From NCBI RefSeq assembly GCF_010119975.1, contig NZ_CP048222.1:6424501-6488500 (forward strand): DNA of 64,000 bases. Direction: 5' to 3'. This DNA is from Rhodocytophaga rosea. Its GTDB lineage: Bacteria; Bacteroidota; Bacteroidia; Cytophagales; 172606-1. Positions 29,101 to 64,000 of this stretch are shown here, piece by piece. The notes under the pieces are model-generated. The model worked only from the letters and a program-made list of their open reading frames with translations, searched no databases and was not told the DNA's origin. The position numbers and the translations under genes are program-made. Within the stretch, counting starts at the first letter, position 1. Every line of letters begins with the position of its first letter.

Positions 29101-29225
29101 GTTTATTGTTCGCTGGTTTTCTAACATTATATGTCATTCCAGCGGTATATTCTTACCTCGCCAGGCCATATAAAGCCAGAGTAGTGGAGAAGGCTACACC
29201 TATTCAGGAGCCTGCGCTTGCTTAA
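26139..29225 (+). CDS. RND multidrug efflux pump, inner-membrane component
   Basis: 1028 residues, the AcrB/MexB (HAE1) length. Twelve membrane helices are arranged as one after the start, a large periplasmic loop, five more, then a second copy. The proton-relay pair D402-D403 lies in GLVVDDAIVVLENI, and K923 lies in LITKNAILIVEFAN, as in functional pumps. The N-terminal motif ISRPVLAGVLSVLIILFGIVGY is typical. It forms a trimer with the adaptor and TolC to export drugs, dyes or detergents. The ArsR upstream may control it. It is followed 62 bp later by the TolC gene. Confidence 0.96.
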   Translation: MSLSGISISRPVLAGVLSVLIILFGIVGYTYLGIREYPVTDSPIVTVTTTYPGASPDVIAYQITKPLEEVIGEANGIRTISSVSREAASVITVEFNLNVDLEAAANDVRDKVSKAIRLLPGDVDPPVVEKANSGDVVIFMAVESKTRSILEVSNIASTVIKERMQTIPGVKRVGIAGEKKYAMRLRIDPVKLAAYQLTPLDIEQALRKENVDLPSGRIEGDQNELTVRTLGRLVQEKDFDNMIIKQEGNSIIRFKDIGYAELGAENERTAILNSGKGNTPVVGVFVEPQRGANAVAIADEFYKRLKELRKEIPQEYELTVGKDFTEPIRNSISEVEETLFIAFGLVILILFIFLRDWRSTIIPVVAIPVSIISAFFIMYVAGYSINVLTLLGLVLAIGLVVDDAIVVLENIFAKVENGMNPVQAAFTGSKEIYFAVISTTITLAAVFLPILFLPGITGKLFQEFAIVVAGSVLVSAFVALTLTPMMSAYLLKPHTKPNWLYRKTEPFFVRLNNGYEQSLNWFMKRRWLAFAALAITMGLIYVVGRLLPSELAPLEDRSQLSLVVMAPEGSSYEYTEKYMNEVAKFSVDSTQGLFQSYSILALTFGPPAPVNVAIQNVFLNKPEERNTTQAQEFMRYARNAQQFRGVLAFPLQPPTIGSRFGQAQPVQYVLQGTNLKAITDVLPKFMEEARKSQVLLFVDSDLKVNKPELVLKIDRDKAAELGISVAEIARSLQLALSGQRYGYFIFNDRQYEVIGQLQKQDRDNPYDLKSIYARTRTGEVVSLDNLVTFEESISPAAIYRYDQAISATVSAGLAPGKTIGDGVAEMNAIAKRVLPPTIKTSLAGESRDFSESSSSLVFAFIFALVLIYLVLAAQFESLMDPFIILLTVPMAMTGALISLYAFDQTLNIFSQIGIITLIGLITKNAILIVEFANQSKEHGLTIMESAKAAAVSRFRPILMTSLAMIFGAVPIALTTSSRNSLGIVIVGGLLFAGFLTLYVIPAVYSYLARPYKARVVEKATPIQEPALA

Positions 29226-29287
29226 AACCAATAAACAGGCAGGGAAATAATGCACTGCCTGCTGATCAAACATATTATTTACCTATC

Positions 29288-47595: not shown

Positions 47596-50258
47596 TTACT
47601 CATTCCGTAAAGATTGTACCGGATTCATCAAAGCGGCTTTGATGGCCTGATAACTTACCGTTAATAAAGTAACAAGTATAGCACCTCCACTGGCAACAGC
47701 AAAAATCCAAAGGGAGATAGTAGTCCGGTATTCATAGTTTTCCAGCCAGCGATACATACAATAATAAGCGATGGGAGCAGATATACACAAAGCGATGAAT
47801 ACCAGACGTACAAAATCCTTGGATAGCAACAACCACACATCTTTCACTGAGGCGCCTAATACCTTGCGGACTCCTATTTCTTTGGTGCGTTGTTCAGCTG
47901 TAAACGAAGCGAGCCCGAATAAGCCCAGGCAAGAGATCAGAATGGCAAGTGTGGCAAATAAAGTAGCCAGTTTGCCAATGCGTTCTTCAGCAGCGAATTT
48001 CCTGGCATATTCCTCATCCACAAACTGATAATCGAAGGGAGCAGAAGGAATAAGTTGTTTGAATACAGTTTCTATTTTAGGTAAGGCCACACTAGCACTC
48101 GCTGTAGGTTTGATTTTAATATTGATCCAGTTGACAGACCCATTAAATCCTTTCAGGTAGAATAAAGTAGGTTCGATAGGCTCATAAGGCGATTCCATTA
48201 CCATATCTTTGATCACACCCAGGATGATATATTGCTTTACTTCTCCGCTTCGCCACCATTTCCAGCTTACGGTTTCTCCTACTGGATTTTCCAGCCCCAT
48301 ATATCTGGCCGCACTTTCATTAATGACCATCCCGGAAGAATCACCCGCTAGTTCTCTGGAAAAATCCCGCCCGGCTATAAACTGCCAGCCTACGGTTTTG
48401 CCATGGTCAGATGTTACAGCCAGGGTGCCAAAGCTATCATCAATATTCGGGTCTTTGCCCTTCCAGGTGAATCCATTATTGCCTGAATAAACTTGTGTCA
48501 CTTTTCCCATCGACTGAGACATTTCTTCTACTACGCCGGTATTTTTTAGTTCTGTTCTCAGCAAGTCGTATTTTCCCTGATAATCTTTCGACTTCATTTC
48601 CATGGTAATAAGCCCATCCCGGTTATAACCCACCGGGCGGCTCTTGCCAAACTGAATCTGGTTATACACAATCATGGTACAGATAATCAGTGTAGCAGAA
48701 ATGCTGAATTGTATTACCACCAGTACCTGCCTGGGAATAGCCGCCAGCCTGCCTGCCCGGAATGTACCTTTGAGCACTTTTACAGGATTGAAGGAAGATA
48801 AATATAGTGCCGGATAACTTCCGGCCAGAATACCAGTGAGGAAAATAAACAGCAGGCTACCTAGCCAGAACCAACCATTCGTCCACAGCATCTGCATCTG
48901 TTTATCGGCTATTTCATTAAAAAGGGGCAAAGCAAGACTAGCCAGTAAAATGGCTACCAGAAAGGCAAGTATTGTTACCAGAAAGGATTCGCTAAAGAAC
49001 TGGCTGATCAATTGTTTCCGTACCGAACCCAGGGTTTTCCGTACACCTACTTCTTTGGCCCTTTTCTCGGAGCGGGCGGTAGAAAGGTTCATGAAATTGA
49101 TACAGGCTAATAACAGCACAAATCCGCCGATCATACCCACCAGCCAGACAAACCGAACAGGTCCTGTATTTGCCACTCCATCTTCAAATTCACCATATAA
49201 ATGCCATTGACTCATCGGATGAAGCAAAATCTGTGGTTTTTGTGCAGCTAAATCCTTATATCCCTCCAGGTTCCTGATCTTATTAAGCGAAGCATCTTTG
49301 ATCTGTTGAGAAACTGCTTTAAAACTGCTGGCAGGATTGATCTGGGCATACATCGTGAGAAAATGATTCGACCAGTCATTGATGGCCCGTTGCTTGATCC
49401 ACTCATTCATGGTCTCCCACAAAACGAAAGGTGCAAAAAATTGAATCCGGTGAAATCTGGAGTTATGCGGAAGGTCTTCATACACACCGGTTACGTGTAC
49501 ATACACATCTGTATTGATTTTTACCCGTTCACTCATAGGATTTTTATCGCCAAATAAAGCTTTGGCCGTAGACGCTGAAAGCAAAACAGAATGCGGATTA
49601 CTAAGGCCGCTCCAGCTTCCTTCCAGCATCTTGAGGGTGAACATTTCCGGAGCAGCCGGGTCCATAAAAACACCCGTTTTGGATACTTTCGTTTCCCCCC
49701 TGTGAGGATATAGTCTTGTGTCCAGGACGACCGGATGATGTGTTTGAACTGGTTGCGGTAACTGGTTTGCAGTTCGGTTGCCAGCGGATATTGCAGACTT
49801 CCGCCCACCCATATGCTGCCTTTATTAGAGTCACGCTTCATCACCTGGGCAATATGATCATAGTGCTGGTGATAGGTGTTGAAAGAAAGTTCATCGTGAA
49901 TCCATAAGCCAATAAGCATGGCTACAGCCATCCCTATGGAAAGTCCACCAATGTTAATAACAGAGTAAGATTTATGTTTGACGAGATTGCGCATAGCAAC
50001 CGTTAGATAATTTTTTAGCATACCAGGATGAAAAGTGGATGTTTGTGTATAGGAATAGTTTGATTTGCGCCTGCGGACAAATGGTGGAACTACCGAAAGT
50101 ACAGCCACTATATATTGTAAATCGGCCACCTTTTTACCGGATTGCTGCTGCCAGTAAGCGTACAACTCTGCCAGATCGCCTTCTACTTCTTCCAGGGTAT
50201 TAGCAGGATGAAGCCATCGGAGCAGCCATATAATCCAGTGGGGTGGTTGTGGTGTCAT
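47596..50258 (-). pseudogene. Orphan FtsX/MacB-type permease (sixth in operon), frameshifted
   Basis: The two parts form one permease of about 886 residues. The N-terminal part (50258 down to about 49700) has the prefix domain LHPANTLEEVEGDLAELYAYW and the first membrane helix. The C-terminal part to 47596 has the FtsX cores with SGSYPALYLSS-like and GVRKTLGS motifs and ends PVQSLRNE. The break is at a run of six G on the coding strand (49695-49700). A seventh G restores LTGGETKVSKTG, which aligns with the paralog at 52928-55543. Its length is 3n+2, as expected for one deleted base. It is 3 bp downstream of the fifth permease. Sequencing error, inactivation and slipped-strand phase variation are all possible. 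Confidence 0.85.
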
Positions 50259-50261
50259 GGC

Positions 50262-52919
50262 TTATTCGCTGCGTAAAGATCTAACCGGATCAGCCAGGGC
50301 GGCTTTAATCGCCTGGAAACTTACCGTGAGTAAGGCGATCAGAAGGGCAATAATTCCTGCCATCGCCATTATACTCATTCCAATATCTACCTGGTAAGCG
50401 AAATCCTGCAACCATTGGTGCATGGCATACCAGGCAAGAGGTGTAGCAATAGCGAAAGCAATCAGTACGAGCTTTATAAAATCTTTGGAAAGAAGTGATA
50501 CAATACTGGGAATACTTGCTCCCAATACCTTCCGGATACCAATTTCTTTGGTGCGTTGGGCGGTAACAAAAGCAACCAAACCAAATAATCCCAGGCAGGC
50601 AATTACAATAGCCAGGCAGGCGAATACGGCGAAAATCTGCCCGATCTTCTGTTCAGCCTGATACATATTGTCAAAGCGATCATCCAGGAAGGAATACGTG
50701 AAGGGCATATCTGAGTATTTTTTCCAGGTTTGTTCCACTGATTTGATCAAACCAGGTAAATCATTGGTTTGTACCCGCAAGGCAATCTGGTAGATATCTG
50801 CATCATAATACATCACCAGGGGAGCAATCCGGTGCCGCAGCGATTCATGGTGGAAATTTTGCACCACGCCAATAATGGTGTGCGTTCGTTTGCTTCCCGG
50901 AGAGCCATCTCCCAGGTCGGAGATGCGTTGCCCAATAGGATTTTTGAAGCCAAATTGCGCGGCTGCTGCTTCGTTAATCAGTACAGCCTCTTTATCTGTG
51001 CCAAATTCTCTGGAGAAATTTCTGCCTTGCTTGAGTTGAATACCCAGAGTTGGTAAGTATTCCTCATCTATGTAATAGGTTTTGATCCGGAAAGTAGAAG
51101 TTTGATTAATTGAGCCTTCCGGTTGAAAACCATCTGTTGCGCTATTGGAGGCACCAGCCGGTAGGTATCCGGCAAAGCTTGCCCGGGTGATTTGAGGATC
51201 TTGTAATAATTCATTCCTGAAAGCCTGGCTTTTTTCTAACAGGTACGTGTCCTGCACAATCAGCACCTGCTCTTTATCAAAACCTAGTTTTTTATTCTGA
51301 ATGTATTGTAATTGCCTGTACACCACCGAAGTGCCAATCAGTAAACTGATGGAAACGACAAATTGAAAAACGACCAGAGAACTTCGCAGCCAGTTGCCTT
51401 TGTATCCTTTTAATAGTTTGCCTTTTAATACACTCACCGGCTGAAAAGACGAGAGGAAAAATGCCGGATAAAGCCCCGCCAGAAAGCCTACTATCAATGA
51501 AAGTAGTAAGCTGCCACCCAATAGCCAGGTATATTCCAGTGAGAAAAGACTTAACGTTTTGCCCGCCAGTTGATTAAAGCCTGGCAATAGAAGAATGACT
51601 AATACAAATGAAACCAGCAAGGCTATTACTGTAAGCAGTATTGATTCTGTTAAAAATTGCCTGATCAATTGGGATTTTACCGAACCCAGCACTTTCCGGA
51701 TGCCCACCTCTTTTGCCCTTTCTGCCGATTGGGCAGTAGAGAGATTCATAAAATTAACACAGGCAAGGGTAAGGATAAACAAAGCAATGGCCGAAAAAAT
51801 ATATATGTACTTACTATCGCTGTTGGCTTCTATTTCATTTTCCATATCTGAATACAGGTGAATGTCAGTAATGGGTTGCAGAAAAAAGCCAAGCTGTCCG
51901 CCGGTTCTCTCAAACTCCTCCAGGCTGATTCCCATAAATTCCTGTATCTCTGATCCCAGGTACTTTTCGACAATTTCCTGGTTTTTGGCTTCAAAAGTTT
52001 CGGGCCTGGTTCCTTCCTTCAATAGCAGATAGGTATAGGCGCCACTCGACAGCCATTTTACATTCGGATCGCGGTCAATAGTGATGAGGGAGGCAAACAG
52101 GGTATAGTGAAAATGCGATTGCATGGGAACATCGGCACAAACACCGGTTACTTTAAATAGACCATCTTTTCCCATCTTCAGCATTTTTCCAACCGGATCT
52201 TCGAGGCCAAAGTATTTTTTAGCAATGGTTTGGGTAATTACAACGGAATTTGGCTCGGTAAGCACCGTTTTTGCACTTCCTTTTAACAGGGGAATAGAAA
52301 AATTTTCGAAAAAATTGGCATCCGCGAAAGCTACTTGTTCCTCTTTAAATTTTTTATCCTTATAACTCACAATATAGGTTCCATTCTCATCAATCCGGGT
52401 CGCACTTTCCACAAAAGGATAATCATTGACAAGTGCCTGTCCGGCAGGCCTGCCAACAAAAGCATTCTGAATATCATTCCCACCGATTCTTCCTTTCATA
52501 TATACCCGGTACATTCTGTCGGCATGGGCAGAGTAGCGGTCGTAGCTCAGTTCATCCTGTACAAACAAAACAATGAGCAGAAAAACAGCCAGGCCAATAG
52601 AAAGGCCGGCAATATTAATAGCGGAGAAGGCTTTTTTCCGCATGAGGTTGCGGAAGGCAATGGTTATATAGTTGCGTATCATATGGAGATGAAGGAAAGT
52701 AGGTTGCGTATAAGATTTCTTTTGTTTCCGCTGACGAACAAACGGAGGAAGCAGGGAAAGGACACTCAAGATAAAGCGTACATTCGCCTGTTTTTTACCA
52801 GATTGATCTACCCAATAGGTATACATTTCAGCTAAATCGCCTTCTACCTCTTCTATCGTTTCCAGAGGATGAAGCCACCTGAGTAGCTTTATTGCCCAGT
52901 AAGGGGGATGAACATTCAT
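50262..52919 (-). CDS. Orphan FtsX/MacB-type permease (fifth in operon)
   Basis: 885 residues. Cytoplasmic prefix about 1-75 (PPYWAIKLLRWLHP, then EEVEGDLAEMY), membrane helix 1 (about 95-120), a MacB-like periplasmic core (about 120-280), the first FtsX core (about 285-430, KEVGIRKVLGSVKSQLIRQF), a second periplasmic core, and the second FtsX core (about 765-885, GIRKVLGASIPSIVSLLSKDF). It ends in the family pattern DPVRSLRSE. It has no ATP-binding domain. In MacB-type systems a separate ATPase drives such a protein, but none is in this window. It is 8 bp after the fourth gene and 3 bp before the sixth. Confidence 0.92.
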   Translation of the reverse strand: MNVHPPYWAIKLLRWLHPLETIEEVEGDLAEMYTYWVDQSGKKQANVRFILSVLSLLPPFVRQRKQKKSYTQPTFLHLHMIRNYITIAFRNLMRKKAFSAINIAGLSIGLAVFLLIVLFVQDELSYDRYSAHADRMYRVYMKGRIGGNDIQNAFVGRPAGQALVNDYPFVESATRIDENGTYIVSYKDKKFKEEQVAFADANFFENFSIPLLKGSAKTVLTEPNSVVITQTIAKKYFGLEDPVGKMLKMGKDGLFKVTGVCADVPMQSHFHYTLFASLITIDRDPNVKWLSSGAYTYLLLKEGTRPETFEAKNQEIVEKYLGSEIQEFMGISLEEFERTGGQLGFFLQPITDIHLYSDMENEIEANSDSKYIYIFSAIALFILTLACVNFMNLSTAQSAERAKEVGIRKVLGSVKSQLIRQFLTESILLTVIALLVSFVLVILLLPGFNQLAGKTLSLFSLEYTWLLGGSLLLSLIVGFLAGLYPAFFLSSFQPVSVLKGKLLKGYKGNWLRSSLVVFQFVVSISLLIGTSVVYRQLQYIQNKKLGFDKEQVLIVQDTYLLEKSQAFRNELLQDPQITRASFAGYLPAGASNSATDGFQPEGSINQTSTFRIKTYYIDEEYLPTLGIQLKQGRNFSREFGTDKEAVLINEAAAAQFGFKNPIGQRISDLGDGSPGSKRTHTIIGVVQNFHHESLRHRIAPLVMYYDADIYQIALRVQTNDLPGLIKSVEQTWKKYSDMPFTYSFLDDRFDNMYQAEQKIGQIFAVFACLAIVIACLGLFGLVAFVTAQRTKEIGIRKVLGASIPSIVSLLSKDFIKLVLIAFAIATPLAWYAMHQWLQDFAYQVDIGMSIMAMAGIIALLIALLTVSFQAIKAALADPVRSLRSE

Positions 52920-52927
52920 GTGTTATT

Positions 52928-55543
52928 CTATTCGTTTCTAAGAGATTTCACCGGGTTCATTAAGGCTGCTTTAATTGCCTGAAAACTTACTGTGAGCAGG
53001 GTAAGTACTATTGCTATACCTAGTGCCAGAATAAATACATCTGCACCCATCTGGATGCGGTAGGTATAATTTTGCAGCCAGTCATTCAAAAAGTAAAAAG
53101 CCAGGGGTGAAGCAATCATGCAACTGACTAGTACCAGCAACAAAAAGTCTTTGGAAAGCATCATCCATAGTTGAGCCACAGTAGCCCCCAGCACCTTGCG
53201 GATGCCAATTTCTTTGGTGCGTTGTTCAGCCACATAGGCAGCCAGCCCAAACAGGCCTAAGCAGGAAATAAACACGGCAAGTATGGCAAAAAAGCCTGAC
53301 AGTTTTCCAATGCGTTCCTCATGGCTGAATTTGCGGGCATAGATCTCATCCACAAATTTGAAATCGAATGGAACAGATGGATTGTATCTGGCAAACACCC
53401 TTTCCACTTTGCGCAAAGCTTCCCGTATACTTAGTTGCGGAGCCAGCCGGATATTGATCATATTCACTGCTGATCCATCGTTGATAATAAAAAAAGAAGG
53501 AGCAACCGGCTCAAATGGATTACTTTTTATCATATTCTCCACAATGCCAATAATCTGGTAATCTTTATTATTGAACCTGATAGAAGTGCCAACTGGCTCT
53601 TTCAAACCCATTAATTTGAGTGCTGCCTGGTTTAGCACTACGGCCGAGGAATCAGTGGCATATTGTGCAGAGAAATCCCGTCCATTCACCACTTGCCAAC
53701 CTATCGTTCTGCCATACTCATGGGAAATGCGGTTGGCCATCAACAAAGGGTGCATTTCGGGCGATTTTCCAGGCCAGTATACATTGGTAACCCCACCGTA
53801 GTCATCGGTTACCGAGCCGGAAGATTGGGAAAAATCAGCTACTGCTCCACTGCTGAGCAAATCGTTTTTTATTGAAGCATGATGCGTATATAGCTCCGGT
53901 GTGTTCATGATTACTTCAATCAAACCATTCTGGCTGTACCCGGTAGGCCGGTCTTTGGCATACTGGATCTGGCGGTAAACGGTAATAATACCAATCACCA
54001 GTGCAATGGAAACTGTGAACTGAAAAATAACCAATGCTTTGCGGGGTGTAGCTGCCAGACGGCCAGCCTTAAATGTGCCTTTTAATACTTTTAAAGGTTG
54101 GAAAGACGACAAATATAAAGCTGGATAACTGCCGGAAACCAGGCTGGTGAGCAAACAGAAACCCAGGCAAATTATCCAGAATAGCGGATTTAACCATAAG
54201 AAGCGTATGCTTGTCCCGGCAATCTCATTGAAAAATGGAAGGGAGAGCAATACGAAACCCACAGAAATAATGAACGCCAGTGCTACCATCAGGAAGGATT
54301 CACTCAGGAATTGTAATACCAGTTGCCTCCGTACCGAACCCAGGGTTTTCCGGATGCCTACTTCTTTGGCCCGTTTGGCGGAGCGGGCGGTAGAAAGGTT
54401 CATAAAATTAATGCAAGCCAGCAGTAATACAGCGATACCCACCATGCCAAATAACTTTACAAAGTAGATCAGCCCTCCGGTGTTTATACCATTCTGAAAG
54501 TCGCCATACAAATGCCATTTGGGCATGGGATGCAGAAAAAATTCAGGCTTGTAGGGAGGCGGATTTTCCCGTTTCATGCGGATGTCCTTAATTTTGGCAG
54601 AAACATCACGTGCTTGGGCCTGATCAGTAAGCTTTACAAAAATCTGGTAAGAATTTTCATCCCATTCCTGCACAGCATTTTTTGCATTTGGATTAAGGGA
54701 TACAAACAGTGGCCAGGGAGCCAGAAAGAATACTTCATTAAAAGAACTGTTGCTGGGAAAATCCTCATACACTGCAGTAATTTTTACAGTTTCCTTATTA
54801 TTCAGGGTGAGTAATTTATTCACAGGCGATTCGTCGCCGAAAAGTGTGATTGCCAGAGATTGGGAAAGCAAAATGCTATTCAGCTCTTTCAGGCCATTAG
54901 CCGAACCAGCCACTATTTTCACAGACATTATATCTATAAAATCCGGCTCTACATACTGGCCGGTTTTTGAAAATTTTTTATCTCCGTTCGCCAGTATGGT
55001 TTCTCTGGTATAGGTAGACAAACTGACCGACTCAAAATCTGGATAGTTGCGCCTGAGTTCTTCTGCCAATGGGATAGGCAATGAATTGTAAGACACTTTT
55101 TCTGTTTCGAAAGTAACAAACTGCCAGAGCTGGGCAACCCGGTTATAGTTATTGTGGGTTTTGTTATAGGATACTTCATTCCAGACCCAAAGGCCAATGA
55201 GCATGGATACAGCCATACCAATAGCAAGACCGCCGATATTGAGGAATGAATAGCCTTTGTTCTTGATCAGGTAGCGAAAAGCGATAATAATGTAATTGCG
55301 GATCATATCAGGATGGAGGAATGAGGTTTGTGTATAGGAATGTTTTGGTTTACGCTGACGAACAAATGGAGGAAGCACTGAGCATACAGCCAGTATATAG
55401 CGTGCATCTGCCCGCCTCTTACCGGATTGCTGATGCCAGTAGGAATACATCTCTTCCAAGTCGCCTTCGACTTCTTCTATGGTCTCAGATGGGTGCAGCC
55501 ACCGGAGCAGCCAGTTAATCCAGTAAGGAGGGTTTGTTTTCAT
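52928..55543 (-). CDS. Orphan FtsX/MacB-type permease (fourth in operon)
   Basis: 871 residues from the ATG at 55543 (MKTNPPYWINW). A longer frame to 55699 overlaps the third gene and is rejected. The prefix has LHPSETIEEVEGDLEEMYSYW. The cores have KEVGIRKTLGSVRRQLVLQF and GIRKVLGATVAQLWMMLSKDF, and the end is NPVKSLRNE. It is the closest relative of the frameshifted sixth gene: KWHLYGDFQNG and SGSYPALYLSSFQPLKVLKGTF in this protein match QWHLYGEFEDG and AGSYPALYLSSFNPVKVLKGTF in that one. A recent duplication is likely. It starts 2 bp after the third permease gene. Confidence 0.92.
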   Translation of the reverse strand: MKTNPPYWINWLLRWLHPSETIEEVEGDLEEMYSYWHQQSGKRRADARYILAVCSVLPPFVRQRKPKHSYTQTSFLHPDMIRNYIIIAFRYLIKNKGYSFLNIGGLAIGMAVSMLIGLWVWNEVSYNKTHNNYNRVAQLWQFVTFETEKVSYNSLPIPLAEELRRNYPDFESVSLSTYTRETILANGDKKFSKTGQYVEPDFIDIMSVKIVAGSANGLKELNSILLSQSLAITLFGDESPVNKLLTLNNKETVKITAVYEDFPSNSSFNEVFFLAPWPLFVSLNPNAKNAVQEWDENSYQIFVKLTDQAQARDVSAKIKDIRMKRENPPPYKPEFFLHPMPKWHLYGDFQNGINTGGLIYFVKLFGMVGIAVLLLACINFMNLSTARSAKRAKEVGIRKTLGSVRRQLVLQFLSESFLMVALAFIISVGFVLLSLPFFNEIAGTSIRFLWLNPLFWIICLGFCLLTSLVSGSYPALYLSSFQPLKVLKGTFKAGRLAATPRKALVIFQFTVSIALVIGIITVYRQIQYAKDRPTGYSQNGLIEVIMNTPELYTHHASIKNDLLSSGAVADFSQSSGSVTDDYGGVTNVYWPGKSPEMHPLLMANRISHEYGRTIGWQVVNGRDFSAQYATDSSAVVLNQAALKLMGLKEPVGTSIRFNNKDYQIIGIVENMIKSNPFEPVAPSFFIINDGSAVNMINIRLAPQLSIREALRKVERVFARYNPSVPFDFKFVDEIYARKFSHEERIGKLSGFFAILAVFISCLGLFGLAAYVAEQRTKEIGIRKVLGATVAQLWMMLSKDFLLLVLVSCMIASPLAFYFLNDWLQNYTYRIQMGADVFILALGIAIVLTLLTVSFQAIKAALMNPVKSLRNE

Positions 55544-55545
55544 AC

Positions 55546-58188
55546 TTATTCGCTGCGTAAGGAACTGACCGGATTGGCTAGTGCTGCTTTGATCGTTTGA
55601 TAGCTGATGGTGAGTAGGGCAATCAGGATAACGGCTAGACCTGCGGAGGCAAACATCCAGGGGGATATAGAAATCCGATAGGCAAAATCTTCCAGCCATC
55701 GGCTCATCAGGAACCAGGCAAGCGGTGTGGCAATCAGGAAGGCGAGTACAACCAGTTTGAGAAAATCTTTGGTTAGCGTCCCTGCAATGCCAGTGGCTGT
55801 AGCGCCCAGTACTTTTCGGATGCCAATCTCTTTTGTTTTTTGCGAAGTAGTATAGGCAATCAGGCCATATAAGCCCAGGCAGGCAATGACCAGGGATAAC
55901 ACAGAAAAGTATAAAAATATCCTAGCAAACCGTTCTTCCGCCCGGTATTGTGCTTCAATAGCGCTATCTGAAAAAATATAATCCAGCAGAACGCCAGGAA
56001 AATGTTTCTTCCAGGTTTTCTCCAGCCAGGCAGTTACAGCAGCAGGTTGCGAAACATTGGTCCGGAGGGTAATTCTTGAAAAGTAGCCATCTGAAGGATA
56101 CATGGCCAGTGGTTCGATCAGGTGTTGCAGGCGGCTGAAATGGAAGTCTTTTACTACACCGATGATGCTGCCTTGCTGATTTCCAATATTGAAAGGCTTT
56201 CCAATGGCTGAACTGGCATCTTTCCACCCCAATCTTTGTATGGCCGATTCATTTACAATAACCGGAAGAACCTTAGTTGCCGGTGACACCTTATCAAAAT
56301 TCCGTCCTGCCAGCAAGTGTAGGCCATACACCTTTATAAAATTAGAATCTACGGCCATCCGGGCAGTATTTACCTGCACTTTGTTTCCTGCTGCATCTAC
56401 GGTTTCTGATTCGCCGGAGGGCAAACTGCCCAGTAAGGTATTGGAAACTGTGGCTCCTGAAATAATCGGATTTGTTTCTAATTCAGTGGCAAATGCAGCG
56501 TACCGGCGCACTACATCTGCATTGCCATGCACCCGTAAAAAAAGCAAGGCATCTTTGTTATATCCCAGGTCTTTGTTTTTAATATAGGTTAGCTGCGAGT
56601 CAATAATAATGATGCTGCTTATAAGCAGAATGGTAATGACAAATTGTGAAACGACCAGCAACTTCCGCAACACTATTCCTTGAGTTGCTGATTTAAAATT
56701 TCCCTTTAACACAACAATGGGTTTGAAACCAGAAATAATGAAGGCCGGATAGATACCTGATACCATGCCTAGCAATAGGCTTATACCTATCAGAAAAACT
56801 ACCAGCATAGGAGATGTGAACAATGATAGATTTTTGCCGGTGATCTGAAAAAATAACGGCTGCAACAGGTAACACAGGACGAAGGCAAGCATCAGAGCGG
56901 CCATGGCAAGTAGGATAGATTCCAGCAGGTATTGAATCATTAACTGATGCCTGAAAGCGCCCACTACCTTTTTAATGCCTGTTTCTTTGGCTTTACTTAC
57001 TGCCTGCGCCGTAGCCAGGTTCATATAATTAATCCCGGCCAGTAGTAAGATAAAGATGCCAATGGTAGAAAAAATATAGACATGCATTTCATTGCCGGTA
57101 GCGGCTAGTTCATATTGTAAATGCGACCTGAGATAAATATCGCTGAGTGGCTGCAGTTGATAAAAATAGATTTCCCGCCATTGAGCAAACCGTTCGCCTA
57201 CATATTTTCCGTAGAACTGGGCTATTTTATCAGAAAATGCTTTATAATCCACCCCTTCTTTTACTAATACATAGGTATAATAGCTGCCATCACCCCAGCC
57301 ATCTACTGTTAACACATCCGGTTTGGCTACCTCAACTGTTTTGAAAGAAACAATCATGGTAAAGGTAAAATGGGCATTATACGGAGGATCGGCCATAACG
57401 CCGGTAATTTTATAGGATGCGCCATAGCCGGTATCATACATATTGAGCAGAAGTGTCTGGCCGATGGGGTCACTGTCGCCAAAGTATTTTTTTGCAGCAG
57501 ATTCCGTGAGAATGATGGAATAGGGTTCATGTAAGGCAGTAGCTACATCTCCTCTGGTGAGTTGATAAGTGAACACATCAAAGAAAGAAGGATCGGCCAG
57601 CAAAATGCCTTTTTCCAGTACCTGCTCCCCTTGATGAGTTATTATTTCTTCCCGCAAATCAAGCCGGACGGTATTTTCCACTTCCGCATAATCTTCCTTG
57701 AGTGCTTTGGCCATAGGCGCACTGGATACAGCAAATTTGATAACACCAGATTCTGTTTTTGCCAGGGCAGTCAGCCGGAAGATTCGGTCATAATTCTTAT
57801 TAAATCGGTCATAACTGAGTTCATCGCTTACCCACAGGGCAATCAAAGAAAAGCAAACCAGGCCAGCCGTTAATCCCACCATGTTTAATAAGGCGTAGGT
57901 TTTGTTTCTGGCCAGACCACGCCGGATATGTTTTATATAATAGTGTATCATAGAAAAGGTCAGGTATAGTGGTTGTGAATGTTTTTTAGAGCGTTGCCGA
58001 ACAAAAGGTGGTAATACCGACAACACTGCCAGTAAATAGCGAACATCAGCTTTAGGTTTGCCATACTGGTTATACCAGTAAGCATATAATTCTTCTAAAT
58101 CTCCTTCCACTTCTTCCAGCGAATCAGAAGGGTGCAACCTTTGGAGTAGCTTTGTTAGCCAGGCCGGTGGAGGAGATATAGGTTTCAT
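55546..58188 (-). CDS. Orphan FtsX/MacB-type permease (third in operon)
   Basis: 880 residues. The prefix is more diverged but keeps LHPSDSLEEVEGDLEELYAYW and VLSVLPPFVRQR. The first FtsX core reads GIKKVVGAFRHQLMIQYLL and the second GIRKVLGATATGIAGTLTKDF. The end is NPVSSLRSE. The predicted layout is one N-terminal helix, then three helices, one helix and a final three helices, as in its neighbours. There is no ATP-binding motif. It is 3 bp after the second gene and 2 bp before the fourth, which points to translational coupling. Confidence 0.92.
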   Translation of the reverse strand: MKPISPPPAWLTKLLQRLHPSDSLEEVEGDLEELYAYWYNQYGKPKADVRYLLAVLSVLPPFVRQRSKKHSQPLYLTFSMIHYYIKHIRRGLARNKTYALLNMVGLTAGLVCFSLIALWVSDELSYDRFNKNYDRIFRLTALAKTESGVIKFAVSSAPMAKALKEDYAEVENTVRLDLREEIITHQGEQVLEKGILLADPSFFDVFTYQLTRGDVATALHEPYSIILTESAAKKYFGDSDPIGQTLLLNMYDTGYGASYKITGVMADPPYNAHFTFTMIVSFKTVEVAKPDVLTVDGWGDGSYYTYVLVKEGVDYKAFSDKIAQFYGKYVGERFAQWREIYFYQLQPLSDIYLRSHLQYELAATGNEMHVYIFSTIGIFILLLAGINYMNLATAQAVSKAKETGIKKVVGAFRHQLMIQYLLESILLAMAALMLAFVLCYLLQPLFFQITGKNLSLFTSPMLVVFLIGISLLLGMVSGIYPAFIISGFKPIVVLKGNFKSATQGIVLRKLLVVSQFVITILLISSIIIIDSQLTYIKNKDLGYNKDALLFLRVHGNADVVRRYAAFATELETNPIISGATVSNTLLGSLPSGESETVDAAGNKVQVNTARMAVDSNFIKVYGLHLLAGRNFDKVSPATKVLPVIVNESAIQRLGWKDASSAIGKPFNIGNQQGSIIGVVKDFHFSRLQHLIEPLAMYPSDGYFSRITLRTNVSQPAAVTAWLEKTWKKHFPGVLLDYIFSDSAIEAQYRAEERFARIFLYFSVLSLVIACLGLYGLIAYTTSQKTKEIGIRKVLGATATGIAGTLTKDFLKLVVLAFLIATPLAWFLMSRWLEDFAYRISISPWMFASAGLAVILIALLTISYQTIKAALANPVSSLRSE

Positions 58189-58191
58189 AAT

Positions 58192-60804
58192 TTATTCGCT
58201 TCGTAAAGATTTTACCGGATTCATCAAAGCTGCTTTGATTGCCCGGAAACTCACCGTGAGAAAAGCGATAAGCAGGGTAATCATTCCGGCGATCAGAAAC
58301 ACTTCTATTCCTATAGTAACCCGGTAAGCAAAATTTTCCAGCCACTGATGCATCATGTACCAGGAAATGGGAAGAGCTATAGCAAAGGCGAGCACGATAA
58401 GTTTGAAAAAGTCTTTAGACAACAGCAGGGTGATATTCCCGACCGATGCCCCCAGTACCTTTCGGATACCCATTTCCTTGGTTTTTGCTTCTGCCAGGAA
58501 GGTGGTTAATCCAAATAAACCTAAACAAGAAATAATAATGGCCAGGGTAGTCAGATTCGAGAATAAATAATAAAACCTAAATTCCAGTGCATGCAGTCTG
58601 GCAAGTTTTTCATCCTGAAAGACATATTCGAAGGGTTTATTGGGCATGTGTTTCTGCCAGATCTGCTCAACAGAAGAAAGCGTTTGAGGCAGGTTTTTCC
58701 CATGCGTTTTGAGGTAAAATGTGCTTCCGTTGCCTTCTTCCCATATGAACCCAAATGGCTTGATGGTCTGGTGAAAAGAGGTAAAATGAAAGTCTTTTAC
58801 AATGCCCACTATGGTTAGCGCCTGTGTCTGGTCCTGGGTATCATCCCACCTGATTTGCTGCCCAACATAGGGCGGGGCTAAGCCTAGTTGTTTGACGGCT
58901 GTTTCATTGAGAATAATGGCTGTAGTATCTGTTGCAAAAGCCCTGGAGAAATTCCGTCCTTCTACCAGTTCTATTCCCATGGTAGGGAGAAAAGCTTGAT
59001 CAGTTCTGAAAAAATTGAGGCTGATATGTACTTGTTGTTGATTGTCACTGATCCCATTCACTTCGTTCTGACTGCCTATTATTCCATCTGCCCTGGCCAC
59101 TCCGGCTATACCTGGTATGGTTTTAAATTCGTTGAGCATCGCCTGCGGATCACCGGCACCCCTGATGTTAGGCAGCAGCAAGATGTTTTCCTGGGCAAAT
59201 CCTACTTTTTTCTGCTGGATATAGGCTACCTGCTCAAAAATGACAATAGAGCCTGTAATGAGTGTAGTAGAGATTACGAATTGAAATACAACTAAGGTTT
59301 TTCTCAATCCTATTCCCTGCGACGAACCAAAAAAACTACCTTTCAGCACTTTTATCGGCTCAAAGGCAGACAGATATAGCGCCGGATACAGTCCGGCAAT
59401 GAGTCCAATGCTGATGACTACAACTATAAGAATAGGCCATATGAGTTGTTGGTTCGCTTCAAACAAGGAAAGCTGGGTGCCAAATATTTTTTCCGTAAAG
59501 GGGAGAAATAATCCTGTGCCAAGCAAGGATAAACCAAAAGCAATACTGATCGTGAACACAGATTCGGCCATAAACTGCTTTACTAATACCAGTTTTGAGG
59601 CGCCAACTACTTTCCGGATGCCTACTTCTTTGGCCCGTTTGGCTGCCTGAGCCGTTACCAGATTAACATAATTGATACCGGCAATAAAAATGACTAAGAC
59701 AGCAATTGTACTGAGAATATGGACATAGGTTATGTCACCATTGGCACCTAATTCCCATTTCAGCTCAGACCTGAGATGAATGTCAGTAATGGCTTGCGTG
59801 TAGAACTGATTAAGGCTTTCTGGTTGGTATTTCTTAAAAAGCGGTTGTAATTGTGCTTGAAAAGCGGCTGCATCTGCCTGAGGTTTCAGGCGGACGTAGG
59901 TATAAAAGCTATACCGTTGCCAGTTTGTCTTAAAGTCACTTACGTTTTGAAAGGGAATTAAAAAATCGAAGGTAAAATGCGAGGTTTGCGGTACATCTTC
60001 TAAAATAGCCGATACCTGAAAATCGGTTCCGTTGTCGACATTGATACGGATGGTTTTTCCGATTGGGTTTTCATCTCCAAAATATTTTTTTGCCGCACTT
60101 TGGGTTAAAACAATAGAATGAACTCCATTGAATGCTTGTTGCTTATTGCCTTCTACAAACGGAAAGTCAAAAACATTAAAAAAATTGCTGTCTACCCGGA
60201 TCAGGTTCAGTTCATAGAAACGTTTCTCTCCATACTCCAGTAAAAAGATTCGCTCCCGGTTAGGAAAAAAACGGGTGGCATAAGCAATCTGGGGCATATC
60301 TTTCTCTAAAGCCGGAGCCAGTGCCGGTGGGGTTGTCGCATCCGGAACGCTGCTGCCATCATTATTAACAAAATCCTTTACTACCCGGTAGATCAACTCT
60401 GGCTGATGGTGAAACCGGTCATACCTGAGCTCATGATTCACAAACAGGAGAATCACCGTAAAGCATACCAGACTGATGGCTAGTCCGGAAATATTGATAA
60501 AAGAAAATAACCTTTGCCGGTTCAGGTGGCGGAAGAGGGTAGTAAGATAGTTGAGCAGCATATCAGGTTGTAGGAGTAAGGGTGATGAGTAAGCCTGTTT
60601 TTGTTTACGCCTTTGTACCAAAGGCGGAAGTACCGAAAGCACAGCCAGCAGATAGCGAAATTTTGCTTTGCGTTTCCCTTGCTGTTGGTACCAATAAGTA
60701 TATAATTCAGCTAAGTCTCCCTCTACCTCTTCCAGTGTTTCTGCCGGATGCAATAGGCGAAGCAGCCTTGTTGCCCATTTTGATGGAGGAGGTAGAGGGT
60801 TCAT
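58192..60804 (-). CDS. Orphan FtsX/MacB-type permease (second in operon)
   Basis: 870 residues. The prefix has LHPAETLEEVEGDLAELYTYW and YLLAVLSVLPPLVQRRK. FtsX cores have KEVGIRKVVGASKLVLVKQF and GIRKVLGASVGNITLLLSKDF. The end is NPVKSLRSE. It is closer to the third gene than to the fourth or sixth in the stretch after the first core (VYIQQKKVGFAQENIL). It has no ATP-binding domain. It starts 4 bp after the first permease gene. Confidence 0.92.
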   Translation of the reverse strand: MNPLPPPSKWATRLLRLLHPAETLEEVEGDLAELYTYWYQQQGKRKAKFRYLLAVLSVLPPLVQRRKQKQAYSSPLLLQPDMLLNYLTTLFRHLNRQRLFSFINISGLAISLVCFTVILLFVNHELRYDRFHHQPELIYRVVKDFVNNDGSSVPDATTPPALAPALEKDMPQIAYATRFFPNRERIFLLEYGEKRFYELNLIRVDSNFFNVFDFPFVEGNKQQAFNGVHSIVLTQSAAKKYFGDENPIGKTIRINVDNGTDFQVSAILEDVPQTSHFTFDFLIPFQNVSDFKTNWQRYSFYTYVRLKPQADAAAFQAQLQPLFKKYQPESLNQFYTQAITDIHLRSELKWELGANGDITYVHILSTIAVLVIFIAGINYVNLVTAQAAKRAKEVGIRKVVGASKLVLVKQFMAESVFTISIAFGLSLLGTGLFLPFTEKIFGTQLSLFEANQQLIWPILIVVVISIGLIAGLYPALYLSAFEPIKVLKGSFFGSSQGIGLRKTLVVFQFVISTTLITGSIVIFEQVAYIQQKKVGFAQENILLLPNIRGAGDPQAMLNEFKTIPGIAGVARADGIIGSQNEVNGISDNQQQVHISLNFFRTDQAFLPTMGIELVEGRNFSRAFATDTTAIILNETAVKQLGLAPPYVGQQIRWDDTQDQTQALTIVGIVKDFHFTSFHQTIKPFGFIWEEGNGSTFYLKTHGKNLPQTLSSVEQIWQKHMPNKPFEYVFQDEKLARLHALEFRFYYLFSNLTTLAIIISCLGLFGLTTFLAEAKTKEMGIRKVLGASVGNITLLLSKDFFKLIVLAFAIALPISWYMMHQWLENFAYRVTIGIEVFLIAGMITLLIAFLTVSFRAIKAALMNPVKSLRSE

Positions 60805-60808
60805 AGGT

Positions 60809-63517
60809 TTATTCGTTGCGCAAGGATTTTACAGGATTAGCTAAAGCCGCTTTAATGGCCTGCCAGCTAACAGTCAGGATCGCAATCAATAGGGCCAGGC
60901 AACCTGCCAGTGCAAAAATCCACCAGTCCAGGTCTATGTGGTAGGCATAGTCCTCGAGCCATTGATTAATCGCCCACCAGGCGATCGGGAAAGCAATTGC
61001 ATTGGCAATTAATACCAGTTTTAAAAAATCTTTGGAGAGCAGGGAGGTAAGATTGAATACGGTAGCGCCTAATACTTTTCGTATGCCGATTTCTTTCACC
61101 CGCTGCTCAGCCGAGTAAGTAGCCAGGCCGAAAAGACCCAGGCAGGCAATGAAAATAGTGGCAAGGGCTACCCAAACCAACAGCGTTTGCCGGCGGTAGT
61201 CTTCCATATAAAATAAGGCCAATTGTTCATCCAGAAAATGGTATTCAAATGGTTCCTCTTTATCGGCCTCTACCATCACTGCTTTTAGCTTTTCCAAGGT
61301 TGCCGGTATATTATTAGCATCAATCCTGGCTGTGTAATAATCGATAACATGGATAGGATTATTATTGTAGGCCAGTACTAAAGGCTCTATTTTATTTTTT
61401 AACGACTGAAAATGAAAGTCTTTGACAATTCCGATCACCCTGGCTTTAAAAGGGATAGCAAGGGGTTGAAATCCGTCTCCCCTTGACATAGCCGGAATCT
61501 CCACCAGCTGGTCAGAGGGCTCAGTAATGTTTAATAATTTAGCTGCTGTTTCATTTAACAGCACAGCCGTAGAATCAGTTGGAGTATTAAAATTCCTACC
61601 TTTTATCAGTTCTACTTCGAAAGTTTGTAAAAAATCTTTGTCAGCACCAAAGAGATAGGCATCCTTTGGTTCAATCCGGTTACCCTGTGTGTTGATTTTA
61701 ACAGTCCGGAGTGTTTTCCATTCGCCCGGTACTCTGGAGGTAACAGAAACATTTTTTACCGAGGGTATTTTGCTCATTCCTTCTTTGATCGCCTCAAAGC
61801 TACTTCTTGCCTTTCCCGTATTTACATCAATGACTACCAAGAGGTCTTTATTGAATCCCAGATCAGTTGTGTTCATAAACTGTACCTGCCGGTAGAGAAC
61901 GATGGTACCAATGATGAGCACAATAGCGATGGTAAACTGAAAAATAACCAGGCTTTTTCTCAGGTTCAGGCTACCCCCGGAATTGATTTTCATACCCTTC
62001 AATAGCAACGTAGGCCTGAAACCAGATAACAGAAAAGCAGGATAGCTGCCTGATAATAAGCCAATCACAATAGTAACTCCTATGGCCATCAGCCATATCT
62101 GGTAACTGGTTCCGAAGCCTAAGGAGAGTTGCTTGTTTGTGAATTCATTGAAGGAAGGCAACACAAGATTTACAAAAATAATGGCCACCACAAAAGCAAG
62201 ACTGGTAACCAGGAGGGCTTCGAATAAAAACTGATACACCAAATTAGCTCTCGCTGCACCGACCGACTTGCGTACCCCAATTTCTTTGGAACGGTTAGCA
62301 GCCCTTGCCGTAGCTAAATTCATGTAATTGATGCCGGCAATAATTATTACAAAAAAGGCGATAAAGGAAAAAATGTTGATATATACCATGCTTCCCTGCA
62401 CAATAGCTTCCACATTTGTATTGCGGGCACCATCCACTATATTTTCAGAATTCAAGTGTAAATCTGTTAATGGCTGCAAGCTATAGGAGAGTGTTGTACC
62501 TGCTTCCGGTTTAAGATTAGCGTGGATCAGCTTTGTTATTTTCGTTGAAACGGATTCCGGATTTGACTGAGGCTTTAATAAAAAATAGACTGAAAAATCT
62601 GTTGATGACCAGTCGCTTTCCATTGTCTGCTTAAAATAATCGAAATTCCGGAAAGAAGCTTCAGAAACCAGTGAATTGAAACTGAAACTCGAATTGCTGG
62701 GATGATTTTTCAAAATTCCAGTAATTTTTAAAGGCGCTTCCATGAAGCTAAACTCTAATGTCTTGCCTAACACCTGTGTCTGATTAAACAGCCGCATGGC
62801 TAAATCTTCATTAATAATGATTGAATTCGGCGCTTGTAAGGCAGTCTGTTTATCCCCTGCAATCAGGGGGAAATCAAAAATCTGCAAAAAATTCTCATCG
62901 GCAACCGTAACTGTTTCCTGAAAAGGAACCGGATTTTTGGGATCGATCAGATTGGCCCGCCCGATCCGCTGGAACCGGGTTGTATTTTCTACTTCGGGAA
63001 TCATTTTCCTGGTTTCTTCCGCCAGTTTGTAGCTTCCGGCGGCAATAGTGGTTTGCTCGCCTTTTACATTTTTATGCTCTACTACCCGGTAGATCCGGCT
63101 GGCATGTGTGTGCTGCTGATCAAATGTGAGTTCGTCGAACAGATAAAGCCCGATCAACAAAAAACAAGTGATACCAAAGGCCAGGCCAGCTACATTAAGG
63201 CTAGTGTATAGTTTGTTTCTTGTGAGGGTTCGGATAGTGATAATGAAATAATTACGGATCATATCAGGCGCTGAAGAGTAAGGTGAGTGAAATTCTTTTT
63301 TTTGTTTCCGGTATTTTACAAAAGGCGGCAGCACCGAAAGCACAGATAAGATATAGTGCCTGTTCGCTTGCCGCTTTCCTGCTTGCTGAAGCCAGATCAT
63401 ATACAATTCATCTAAGTCCCCTTCCACTTCTTCTATGGTTTCAGTGGGGTGCAGTCGCCTGAGCAACCATACTGCCCAACGGGGTGGCTGAGGTAAGGCA
63501 TTGTTAGGTGATGTCAT
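60809..63517 (-). CDS. Orphan FtsX/MacB-type permease (first in operon)
   Basis: 902 residues, the longest of the set. The prefix has LHPTETIEEVEGDLDELYMIW and YILSVLSVLPPFVKYRK. The cores have KEIGVRKSVGAARANLVYQF and GIRKVLGATVFNLTSLLSKDF. The end is NPVKSLRNE. A distinctive stretch in the first periplasmic region (SENIVDGARNTNVEAIVQGSM) is not seen in the others. Its start codon overlaps the PadR stop by 4 bp, so translation of this permease depends on that of the regulator. It has no ATP-binding domain. Confidence 0.93.
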   Translation of the reverse strand: MTSPNNALPQPPRWAVWLLRRLHPTETIEEVEGDLDELYMIWLQQAGKRQANRHYILSVLSVLPPFVKYRKQKKEFHSPYSSAPDMIRNYFIITIRTLTRNKLYTSLNVAGLAFGITCFLLIGLYLFDELTFDQQHTHASRIYRVVEHKNVKGEQTTIAAGSYKLAEETRKMIPEVENTTRFQRIGRANLIDPKNPVPFQETVTVADENFLQIFDFPLIAGDKQTALQAPNSIIINEDLAMRLFNQTQVLGKTLEFSFMEAPLKITGILKNHPSNSSFSFNSLVSEASFRNFDYFKQTMESDWSSTDFSVYFLLKPQSNPESVSTKITKLIHANLKPEAGTTLSYSLQPLTDLHLNSENIVDGARNTNVEAIVQGSMVYINIFSFIAFFVIIIAGINYMNLATARAANRSKEIGVRKSVGAARANLVYQFLFEALLVTSLAFVVAIIFVNLVLPSFNEFTNKQLSLGFGTSYQIWLMAIGVTIVIGLLSGSYPAFLLSGFRPTLLLKGMKINSGGSLNLRKSLVIFQFTIAIVLIIGTIVLYRQVQFMNTTDLGFNKDLLVVIDVNTGKARSSFEAIKEGMSKIPSVKNVSVTSRVPGEWKTLRTVKINTQGNRIEPKDAYLFGADKDFLQTFEVELIKGRNFNTPTDSTAVLLNETAAKLLNITEPSDQLVEIPAMSRGDGFQPLAIPFKARVIGIVKDFHFQSLKNKIEPLVLAYNNNPIHVIDYYTARIDANNIPATLEKLKAVMVEADKEEPFEYHFLDEQLALFYMEDYRRQTLLVWVALATIFIACLGLFGLATYSAEQRVKEIGIRKVLGATVFNLTSLLSKDFLKLVLIANAIAFPIAWWAINQWLEDYAYHIDLDWWIFALAGCLALLIAILTVSWQAIKAALANPVKSLRNE

Positions 63518-63852
63518 AGCCCAGCCAGTTTAATGCTATGGGGCGGAACCAGTTGCCAGAGTTGGGTGCGTAATTCCTGAATGTCTTGTATGGCCCGGCT
63601 GCCTGCTGGTGTAAGTGTAAACAGTCGCTTTCGTCTTCCTCCCCGTTCGGCAGTAGCACCTCCTAATTGAGATTTTACAAAGCCTTTCTCCTCTAAGCGA
63701 ATCAGCGTATTGTGTACCGTGCCAAAAGTAACTTGCCTGCCAGTTTGCTGCTCCAGTTCCTGACTTACGGTAACACCATATGCCTCCCCATCCAGGATGG
63801 CAACCATTAGTAAAACCATTTCTTCAAATTCTCCCAAATAGGTTCTTTTCAT
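63514..63852 (-). CDS. PadR family transcriptional regulator
   Basis: 112 residues. A winged helix of the PadR type: LGEFEEMVLLMVAILDGEAYGVTVSQELEQQTGRQVTFGTVHNTLIRLEEKGFVKSQLG and the Arg-rich wing AERGGRRKRLFTLTPAGSRAI. A short C-terminal helix for dimerisation follows. It is the first gene of a seven-gene operon and overlaps the first permease by 4 bp. In Acidobacteria and some other groups PadR genes of this type stand in front of orphan permease genes, so it is likely to repress the operon. A palindromic candidate site lies just upstream. The effector may be a signal sensed by the permeases, by inference. Confidence 0.93.
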   Translation of the reverse strand: MKRTYLGEFEEMVLLMVAILDGEAYGVTVSQELEQQTGRQVTFGTVHNTLIRLEEKGFVKSQLGGATAERGGRRKRLFTLTPAGSRAIQDIQELRTQLWQLVPPHSIKLAGL

Positions 63853-63857
63853 CGTCT

Positions 63858-63893
63858 TTGGTATTAGTCTATATTTTGTCGTACAAATACCAA
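63858..63893 (-). promoter_or_regulatory. Candidate PadR operator
   Basis: TTGGTATT and AATACCAA (8-bp arms, 63858-63865 and 63886-63893) with a 20-bp spacer that contains TGTCGTACA, a smaller dyad. It lies 5 bp upstream of the PadR start. It is the only symmetric element in the 148 bp at the end of the window. The role is inferred from position. Confidence 0.45.
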
Positions 63894-64000
63894 GCCGATT
63901 TTATAAATTACTCATATTCAGATAATTATGAGAGAATTAAGCATAGAATAGTGTAAATTCTGTTATGCCTACGAACAGTAAGTGTCCGGTTTAGTGCATG

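Follow-up and report, generated by a model that had tools for sequence, protein, structure and literature searches.

A dyad of a stand-alone PadR regulator and a membrane protein bearing a HAAS domain has been proposed as an alternative to two-component systems, an idea that draws on which genes are neighbours and on the analysis of their domains (Ravi et al. 2024, mSystems, PMC11237479). Here we analyse a comparable arrangement in Rhodocytophaga rosea, an operon at the right end of a 64,000-nucleotide stretch (the window) of its chromosome (NZ_CP048222.1, positions 6,424,501 to 6,488,500; a single contig of 8.98 Mb), in which a PadR gene heads six genes for duplicated FtsX/MacB-type permeases that begin with permease prefix domain 2 (PD2). 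Judged by sequence identity, PD2 is operon-specific, the permease bodies behind it carry almost no operon signal, PadR covaries with PD2, and in some operons the DNA encoding PD2 has been copied between genes. We consider it probable that PD2 acts as a docking tag, particular to each operon, for the PadR whose gene heads that operon.

The likeness to the HAAS-PadR dyad, as presented in the accessible part of PMC11237479, lies in a small cytoplasmic helical N-terminal domain on membrane proteins, FtsX/MacB_PCD permeases included, together with a stand-alone PadR. In the R. rosea genome such a PadR adjoins 12 of 12 PD2 clusters. What sets the present case apart is that operon-specific tags, body exchange and residue-level covariation are not described in that part of the paper.

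The acidobacterial duplicated orphan permease (ADOP; TIGR03434 and TIGR03433, prefix NF038403) is likewise a duplicated orphan permease with a prefix domain, encoded behind PadR. A locus taken for comparison, on plasmid pACPOL4 of Acidisarcina polymorpha, gave 710 bits for ADOP, 44 bits for the prefix PD1 and 132 bits for PadR, whereas the window permeases gave 265.8 to 329.8 bits with TIGR03434 in the five intact genes and 283.8 bits in the 3' part of the sixth, all below the cut-off of 622.3 bits, and carry PD2, PD1 not being among their matches. An earlier sequence-only reading of the window had suggested that the operon is what Bacteroidota have in place of the PadR-linked permeases of Acidobacteria, and this comparison supports it. 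The accessible part of a further report counts 28 and 33 copies of the 'acidobacterial duplicated orphan permease' in two Dyadobacter strains (PMC11573002).

All six window genes exceed the curated 35-bit cut-off of the NCBIfam model NF038404 (permease prefix domain 2-containing transporter), with scores of 57.8 to 68.9 bits. That model only names the domain, and the phrase 'permease prefix domain' was not found in the literature searched. Earlier work had already provided the domain models and the HAAS-PadR idea, and it was known that these permeases neighbour PadR and that Dyadobacter has them in abundance; our literature searches found no description of operon-specific tags, of body exchange or of a charge-coded contact between PadR and a tag.

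PD2 follows the operon, the permease body hardly does

The genome encodes 28 PD2 permeases in 12 clusters, of six, five, four, three and three genes plus seven single genes, and 12 of its 16 PadR matches precede these clusters, one each, which exceeds chance. Counting the source genome, PD2 was present in 12 of the 39 genomes of a relatives search and in 26 of 296 genomes sampled across the phylum, in 25 of which it exceeded the cut-off. The arrangement of PadR and permeases without an ATPase, on whose occurrence in related genomes the sequence-only reading had staked its interpretation, is recurrent, in relatives as in named species. The relatives sample comprised 71 tagged genes, picked for multi-gene clusters from the 144 PD2 matches that seven genomes contain; PD2 matches also occur in G002, G004, G025 and G033, four relatives outside the sample. 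Five of its 34 units had no PadR, four at the ends of regions or contigs and one (G003b.2+) as an artefact of the 4500-bp rule; these were kept in the identity counts and omitted from the PadR correlations, as was G005, a near-duplicate of G003. A further set of named loci consisted of the best 80 of at least 559 PadR matches, from Larkinella, Spirosoma, Dyadobacter, Chitinophaga, Runella and others, with 137 tagged genes; PD2 follows PadR in 89 of 96 cases there, a figure conditional on the choice of loci by best PadR match.

The statement of the sequence-only reading that all six genes share the same prefix domain holds, and understates the case. Among the 27 intact tagged permeases of the source genome, PD2 identity stood at 0.694 for the 32 pairs from one operon and at 0.358 for the 319 pairs from different operons, while the body (residues 98-902 of permease 1) gave 0.339 within and 0.328 between. 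The largest gap for any body segment tried was 0.025, in the second FtsX domain. When operon labels were permuted, the PD2 difference was reached in 0 of 5000 trials and the body difference exceeded in 718 of 5000, and by PD2 all 20 of 20 genes had their nearest neighbour in their own operon, by body 3 of 20. The operon signal fades at residues 75-90, in the stretch that joins PD2 to the first membrane helix. The pattern was the same with the seven relatives pooled with the source genome (PD2 0.753 within versus 0.392 between, body 0.367 versus 0.343; same-operon nearest neighbour 74 of 79 by PD2 and 18 of 79 by body, with 13.9 expected at random) and in the 34 multi-gene operons of the named loci (66 within-operon pairs; PD2 0.743 versus 0.410, body 0.367 versus 0.349). 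A run of seven genes in G034 shows two tag types, and a scan of open reading frames (ORFs) places a further PadR exactly at the switch point.

Similar bodies can carry unlike tags. A permease of the source genome (I1_1) and one of a relative (G001a_3) share 0.76 identity in the body and 0.28 in PD2, and two adjacent operons of G016 share 0.68 and 0.30. A FastTree tree of bodies from fetched stretches of the source genome (27 tagged, 41 untagged; 26 of 65 branches open) mixes tagged with untagged bodies, three of the untagged ones coming from ATPase-bearing operons. It has 18 changes of tag state, of which well-supported branches force at least 13; with shuffled labels 21 are expected. At fourfold silent sites PD2 identity was 0.616 within operons and 0.415 between, as against 0.379 and 0.358 for the body, and two operons were fully identical there in PD2 (34 of 34 and 21 of 21 sites). 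Given this silent-site identity, tag DNA has been copied between genes of one operon, recently in some operons. Inside one tagged operon of G003 lies a gene for a 787-aa permease without PD2 (L140, 8258-10621) that is missing from the operon of its near relative G005; it may be a body newly arrived before tagging, or may have been lost in G005.

PD1 in Gemmatirosa was tried as a test in a second phylum (14 genes, three two-gene operons; PD1 0.78 within versus 0.39 between), which does not separate tag from body because bodies, too, resemble each other in two of the three pairs (0.69 and 0.68). On two plasmids of Gemmatirosa kalamazoonensis (L242 and L243, near 15000), PadR genes whose products are 57% and 44% identical to the window PadR are followed by permeases, the first with a weak PD2 match (28 bits with our own model) and the second PD2-like by eye only; these plasmids hold 34 PD1 matches, 33 of them above the cut-off.

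Covariation of PadR with PD2

Identity between PadR proteins tracked identity between the PD2 domains behind them. The correlation was 0.54 over 38 operons of the source genome and relatives (0 of 5000 permutations), against 0.11 for PadR with the body, and 0.71 over 87 named operons (0 of 2000 permutations; partial correlation 0.68 given the body), against 0.34 with the body. Excess mutual information in 125 PadR-PD2 pairs exceeded that between PadR and three body segments by a factor of 2.3 to 3.5. Among the highest-ranking position pairs are PadR 31 with PD2 41 and 42, PadR 43 with PD2 62, and PadR 33 and 34 with PD2 38.

At PadR 31 and PD2 41-42 the charges were opposite in 43 of the 125 pairs and like in one (43 of 44 where both sides are charged), a count made on the same sequences on which this contact was chosen. 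Among 32 PadR representatives below 65% identity there were 14 opposite and one like, and among 92 later genes of operons 35 opposite and none like. In six of the eight genomes, cognate pairs gave 33 opposite, 0 like and 44 neutral, and mispairs within the same genomes 92, 41 and 360; the Fisher p of 3e-5 for this comparison is too small, because genes within an operon are not independent. A separate split test, whose two halves may contain related species, picked positions on the named loci, where PadR 31 with PD2 41 was the most negative of 1155 charge pairs (r -0.74); the same pair gave r -0.80 in the 38 operons of the source genome and relatives, in which three further top pairs kept their sign and one was non-computable. 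A control scan of three body segments placed one of 1564 pairs below r -0.4 (E8-R806, r -1.0, in near-invariant columns) and four above 0.4. PD2 residues 38, 41 and 42 lie on one face of helix 2, judging by their spacing in models, and PadR residues 30-34 presumably fall within the second helix of the winged-helix fold, for which solved structures of PadR relatives exist. PadR residue 31 is the predicted main contact position for PD2.

Several observations weigh against a docking role. Taken singly, two relatives are weak: in G001 the tag neighbour came from the same operon for only 5 of 7 genes and the body also gave 0.425 within versus 0.329 between, and G023 offered one pair (675 of 2000 permutations). 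Three two-gene operons (L200, L204 and L205) carry unlike tags (0.39-0.46), and no PadR was seen between their genes. Over the 12 operons of the source genome alone, PadR correlated with PD2 at 0.37 and with the body at 0.29 (first genes 0.41 and 0.20), and part of the PadR-PD2 covariation is shared ancestry, as the body correlation of 0.34 in the named set indicates. Across all 1224 PadR-PD2 position pairs, 8 opposite-charge correlations fell below r -0.4 and nearly as many like-charge ones, 6, above 0.4, and only 31/41 stands out. The predicted contact of the window operon is itself uncharged (PadR Gln 31 with PD2 Tyr/Ile-Trp), Q with YW being the commonest residue class at these positions, and recent copying of the tag is not seen in this operon, where silent sites are saturated (67/195). 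Close relatives of the window PadR in Dyadobacter soli, Dyadobacter sp. SG02 and Spirosoma panaciterrae (L169, L174 and L185, near 10001-10340) have no permease directly behind them, and in Emticicia agri (L233, 10001-17951) a window-type PadR heads three permeases in which no PD2 was detected. The HAAS fold has three helices with a GxP kink and is homologous to DUF1700/DUF1048; PD2 is three-helical in a structure model. PD2 did not, however, prove to be a homologue of PD1, taken here by assumption as the HAAS-type prefix: comparison with a PD1 profile of 26 sequences (25 from Gemmatirosa, one from Acidisarcina) by hhalign gave a probability of 0.2% and no similarity, three PD2 stretches of the window had no significant match in Pfam, and sequence and fold searches of PD2 against the PDB gave no match, which leaves the relation to HAAS as one of analogy.

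The likeness of PD2 within operons could instead reflect only local gene conversion or a shared translation-start sequence, with PadR merely standing in front and making no contact. DNA-level copying is visible at the silent sites of several operons and is expected between neighbouring genes, and in the source genome alone PadR follows PD2 hardly more than it follows the body. This account is nevertheless difficult to reconcile with opposite-charge covariation at defined residues of PadR and PD2 that was kept in the split test, or with tag types that switch at PadR genes inside the one continuous array of G034. In the window operon PD2 identity is 0.62 at the protein level despite saturated silent sites, so that long-standing selection, rather than recent copying, seems to hold the tag there; we regard conversion alone as quite improbable. 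PadR proteins that control transporters are well known, and the regulator might bind a small molecule handled by the permeases, with PD2 serving homotypic assembly of the permeases of an operon and not PadR binding, a role that an operon-specific tag would also suit. However, PD2 covaries with PadR, and the seven single-gene operons of the source genome keep the tag without a partner gene, their charges at PadR 31 and PD2 41-42 being opposite in four, neutral in three and like in none; we give this proposal little credence. Since the tag is operon-specific and the bodies are not, PadR tracks PD2 more than the body, and the charges at the contact oppose each other, PD2 most likely serves as the PadR-docking tag of its operon.

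If PD2 is such a tag, the cytoplasmic three-helix prefix on each permease would dock the PadR repressor of its own operon, the second helix of PadR (about residues 30-34) touching one face of PD2 helix 2 (residues 38, 41 and 42). PadR would sit on a TTTGTNNNACAAA site at its own promoter, and membrane-held PD2 domains would bind it to a degree that varies as each permease transports or meets its substrate. Differently tuned permeases might in this way act as parallel inputs to one regulator, and the state of each would set how much PadR is free to repress. Permease bodies with different periplasmic domains would be interchangeable modules, a body in a PadR operon bearing the tag of that operon, and the tag would have spread at least partly by copying of tag-coding DNA between the genes of the operon. 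The permeases would be powered by an ATPase encoded elsewhere, inside a wider, probably sigma54/NtrC-type, envelope-stress regulon. The chances seem to us about even that this amounts to modular multi-input signalling, in which exchanged bodies and a tag of about 65 residues, charge-matched helix to helix to the PadR of the operon, provide a dozen insulated PadR channels with up to six membrane inputs each and replace two-component systems. If true, many different envelope transporters would be wired to one regulator without histidine kinases, and the idea that the ligand of a PadR may be a membrane-protein domain instead of a small molecule would become directly testable. The sequences supply a predicted contact at residue level (PadR 31 with PD2 41/42), 12 PadR-tag pairs that occur naturally side by side in this genome and lend themselves to tests of specificity, and a possible reason for the dozens of 'orphan' permeases in relatives such as Dyadobacter.

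ATPase supply and upstream elements

The sequence-only reading had reported no ATPase in the window, and a profile built from seven LolD/MacB-type ATPases of the source genome indeed found none among the 75 complete window ORFs of at least 90 aa; none was found within 3.5 kb past the window edge, and no ATPase ORF was tagged in any of the 12 PD2 operons. Among the 80 named loci there were one LolD-like ATPase ORF (311 bits; L162, 8 kb off and on the other strand) and five weaker matches. These results speak for the second option of that reading, ATPase-free sensors or scaffolds signalling to PadR, in which the permeases would have lost ATPase coupling. The second half of this idea survives, in that the prefix appears to signal to PadR, but the lack of any ATPase is disfavoured. 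Of 235 tagged permeases, 204 contain the coupling-loop motif of FtsX-type permeases two times, 29 contain it once and 2 lack it, and tagged bodies interleave with untagged ones, three of the latter from ATPase-bearing operons. Searched genome-wide, as that reading had proposed, the source genome yielded seven strong LolD-like ATPases (189-269 bits), four of which adjoin FtsX-type permeases and three of which do not; two of the four ATPase-bearing permease operons carry upstream the palindrome seen before several PadR genes (below), and a third lies about 2 kb from the PD2 operon E3, divergent from it. An ATPase in the same regulon was what that reading had named as counting against it, and the shared palindrome may point to such a regulon; none of the eight ATPase genes examined has it directly upstream, and the window operon has only a three-mismatch copy. 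A cognate ATPase, as in a type VII ABC transporter, may be among the candidates elsewhere in the genome, such as those at C1:4244804, 3772657, 7306288 and 3871139. Because the coupling loops are kept and the palindrome is common to two ATPase-bearing permease operons, a remote ATPase is favoured over ATPase-free sensors, which we hold to be unlikely; most likely the tagged proteins remain ABC permeases and depend on an ATPase whose gene lies at another locus.

A further proposal, that the permeases are subunits of hetero-dimers, was dropped as unneeded, because each intact chain already holds both FtsX/MacB halves. Domain matches place two FtsX and two MacB_PCD domains on each of permeases 1-5, as expected of a MacB/FtsX-type duplicated permease, and in the model of permease 5 (mean pLDDT 89.5) PD2 forms three helices and is tied by a loose linker, residues 63-71, to two MacB-like halves. 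A fold search with this model gave E. coli YbbAP (9ge6) as the best match (E 2.2e-18, TM-score 0.43-0.46), with MacB (5gko) next (E 7.7e-13) and LolCDE and BceAB after it. YbbP is a duplicated permease; YbbAP and MacB differ from the window proteins in that they work with a dedicated ATPase and are not known to carry a PD2 prefix.

Upstream motifs were counted before 106 PadR genes (12 of the source genome and 94 named), near relatives included, so that the counts are less independent than they look. GTCC-N6-GGAC occurs in 49 of the 106 regions, against a mean of 0.05 in shuffles, and usually lies at about -110 to -150. TTTG-N5-CAAA occurs in 41 (0.55 in shuffles), mostly near -40 and often behind TTGGCA. 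TTGGCA-N4-ATTTG, which may correspond to the sigma54 -24/-12 consensus, was matched exactly 12 times in the genome against 2 for the control; 5 of these sites stand before PadR genes of this genome and 7 elsewhere.

The palindrome TGTCCG-N4-CGGACA has seven exact chromosomal sites, all in gaps upstream of permease-system genes: three before the PadR operons B5, E3 and K1, one before a permease-permease-ATPase operon, and the others before an untagged permease, a Toastrack (DUF4097) gene in an untagged array, and a pentapeptide-repeat gene followed by a permease. A one-mismatch site lies between an operon of a 418-aa gene, an ATPase and a permease and the gene of a sigma54-type response regulator. 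With up to one mismatch the whole genome holds 19 sites, not above the 21 of a reversed control, which tells against this element as a regulon mark by number; its placement alone is informative, 16 of the 19 lying in gaps upstream of permease-system genes and 3 inside ORFs. Within 300 bp upstream, such sites occur at 4 of 10 PadR genes (10 of the 12 being covered), at 6 of 43 permeases without a recognised tag (two of the 43, H1 and I1, are actually tagged, neither among the six with a site) and at 3 of 134 other genes, all three tied to permease clusters. Directly upstream of ATPase genes there was none among the eight examined.

The Toastrack gene (L113, 474-1433) and the pentapeptide-repeat gene (L121, 4964-5725) with exact palindromes upstream both stand beside permeases, which hints at a link to envelope-stress systems. 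Sigma54 activators gave eight strong matches, five of them adjoining permease clusters, and RpoN gave a single match in the genome. The tagged permeases presumably fall under COG0577. The accessible part of a 2025 survey gives a sigma54 enrichment for COG0577 permeases in Bacteroidia (PMC12316311), and that of the HAAS-PadR paper names Toastrack and pentapeptide domains as partners in such systems (PMC11237479). From the palindrome sites, the activators, RpoN, this enrichment and these partners we infer an envelope-stress regulon, probably of the sigma54/NtrC type, with PadR as the local repressor; the palindrome-bearing PadR and ATPase operons may form one regulon.

The window operon and its surroundings

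The operon occupies the minus strand, as the sequence-only reading had it, with gaps of -4, 4, 3, 2, 8 and 3 bp between its seven genes, and both the ORF list and a PF03551 match (41.8 bits) agree with a PadR at its head. The PadR gene (63514..63852, 112 aa), whose product is the proposed partner of the PD2 tags of the operon, is followed by permease 1 (60809..63517; NF038404 match at 63305-63487), permease 2 (58192..60804; 60601-60786), permease 3 (55546..58188; 57988-58170), permease 4 (52928..55543; 55349-55531; the listed ORF starts upstream, at 55699) and permease 5 (50262..52919; 52722-52907), all duplicated and PD2-tagged. Of the six full-length paralogs that had been claimed, these five are intact; the sixth is split over two frames, a PD2-bearing 5' part (49533..50258; NF038404 match at 50064-50246), downstream of which the frame breaks, and a 3' part without PD2 in a different frame (47596..49812) that overlaps it. 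The break may be a genuine lesion, making this a pseudogene, or a sequencing error.

Upstream of PadR, on the same strand, the palindrome TTTGTACGACAAA (TTTGT-N3-ACAAA type; 63875..63887) lies 22 bp before the PadR start and is the proposed PadR operator. A divergent copy of the TTGGCA-N4-ATTTG element, CGGCTTGGTATTTG (63884..63897), could be a sigma54-like -24/-12 site, and an imperfect copy of TGTCCG-N4-CGGACA with three mismatches is found at 63983..63998. A gene for an HxlR-family regulator stands just past the window edge, upstream of PadR.

Duplicated permeases that lack PD2, about 800 aa long, are also numerous in the genome, part of them in long arrays; three such arrays of untagged duplicated FtsX permeases (C1:7048723-7090653, 5439664-5471619 and 2498338-2514058; L112-L117) are without a PadR of the window type, and in two of the three a sigma54-type activator gene lies less than 400 bp from one end. 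Elsewhere in the window, 26139-30622 carries genes for an AcrB-type efflux pump and an outer-membrane efflux protein.

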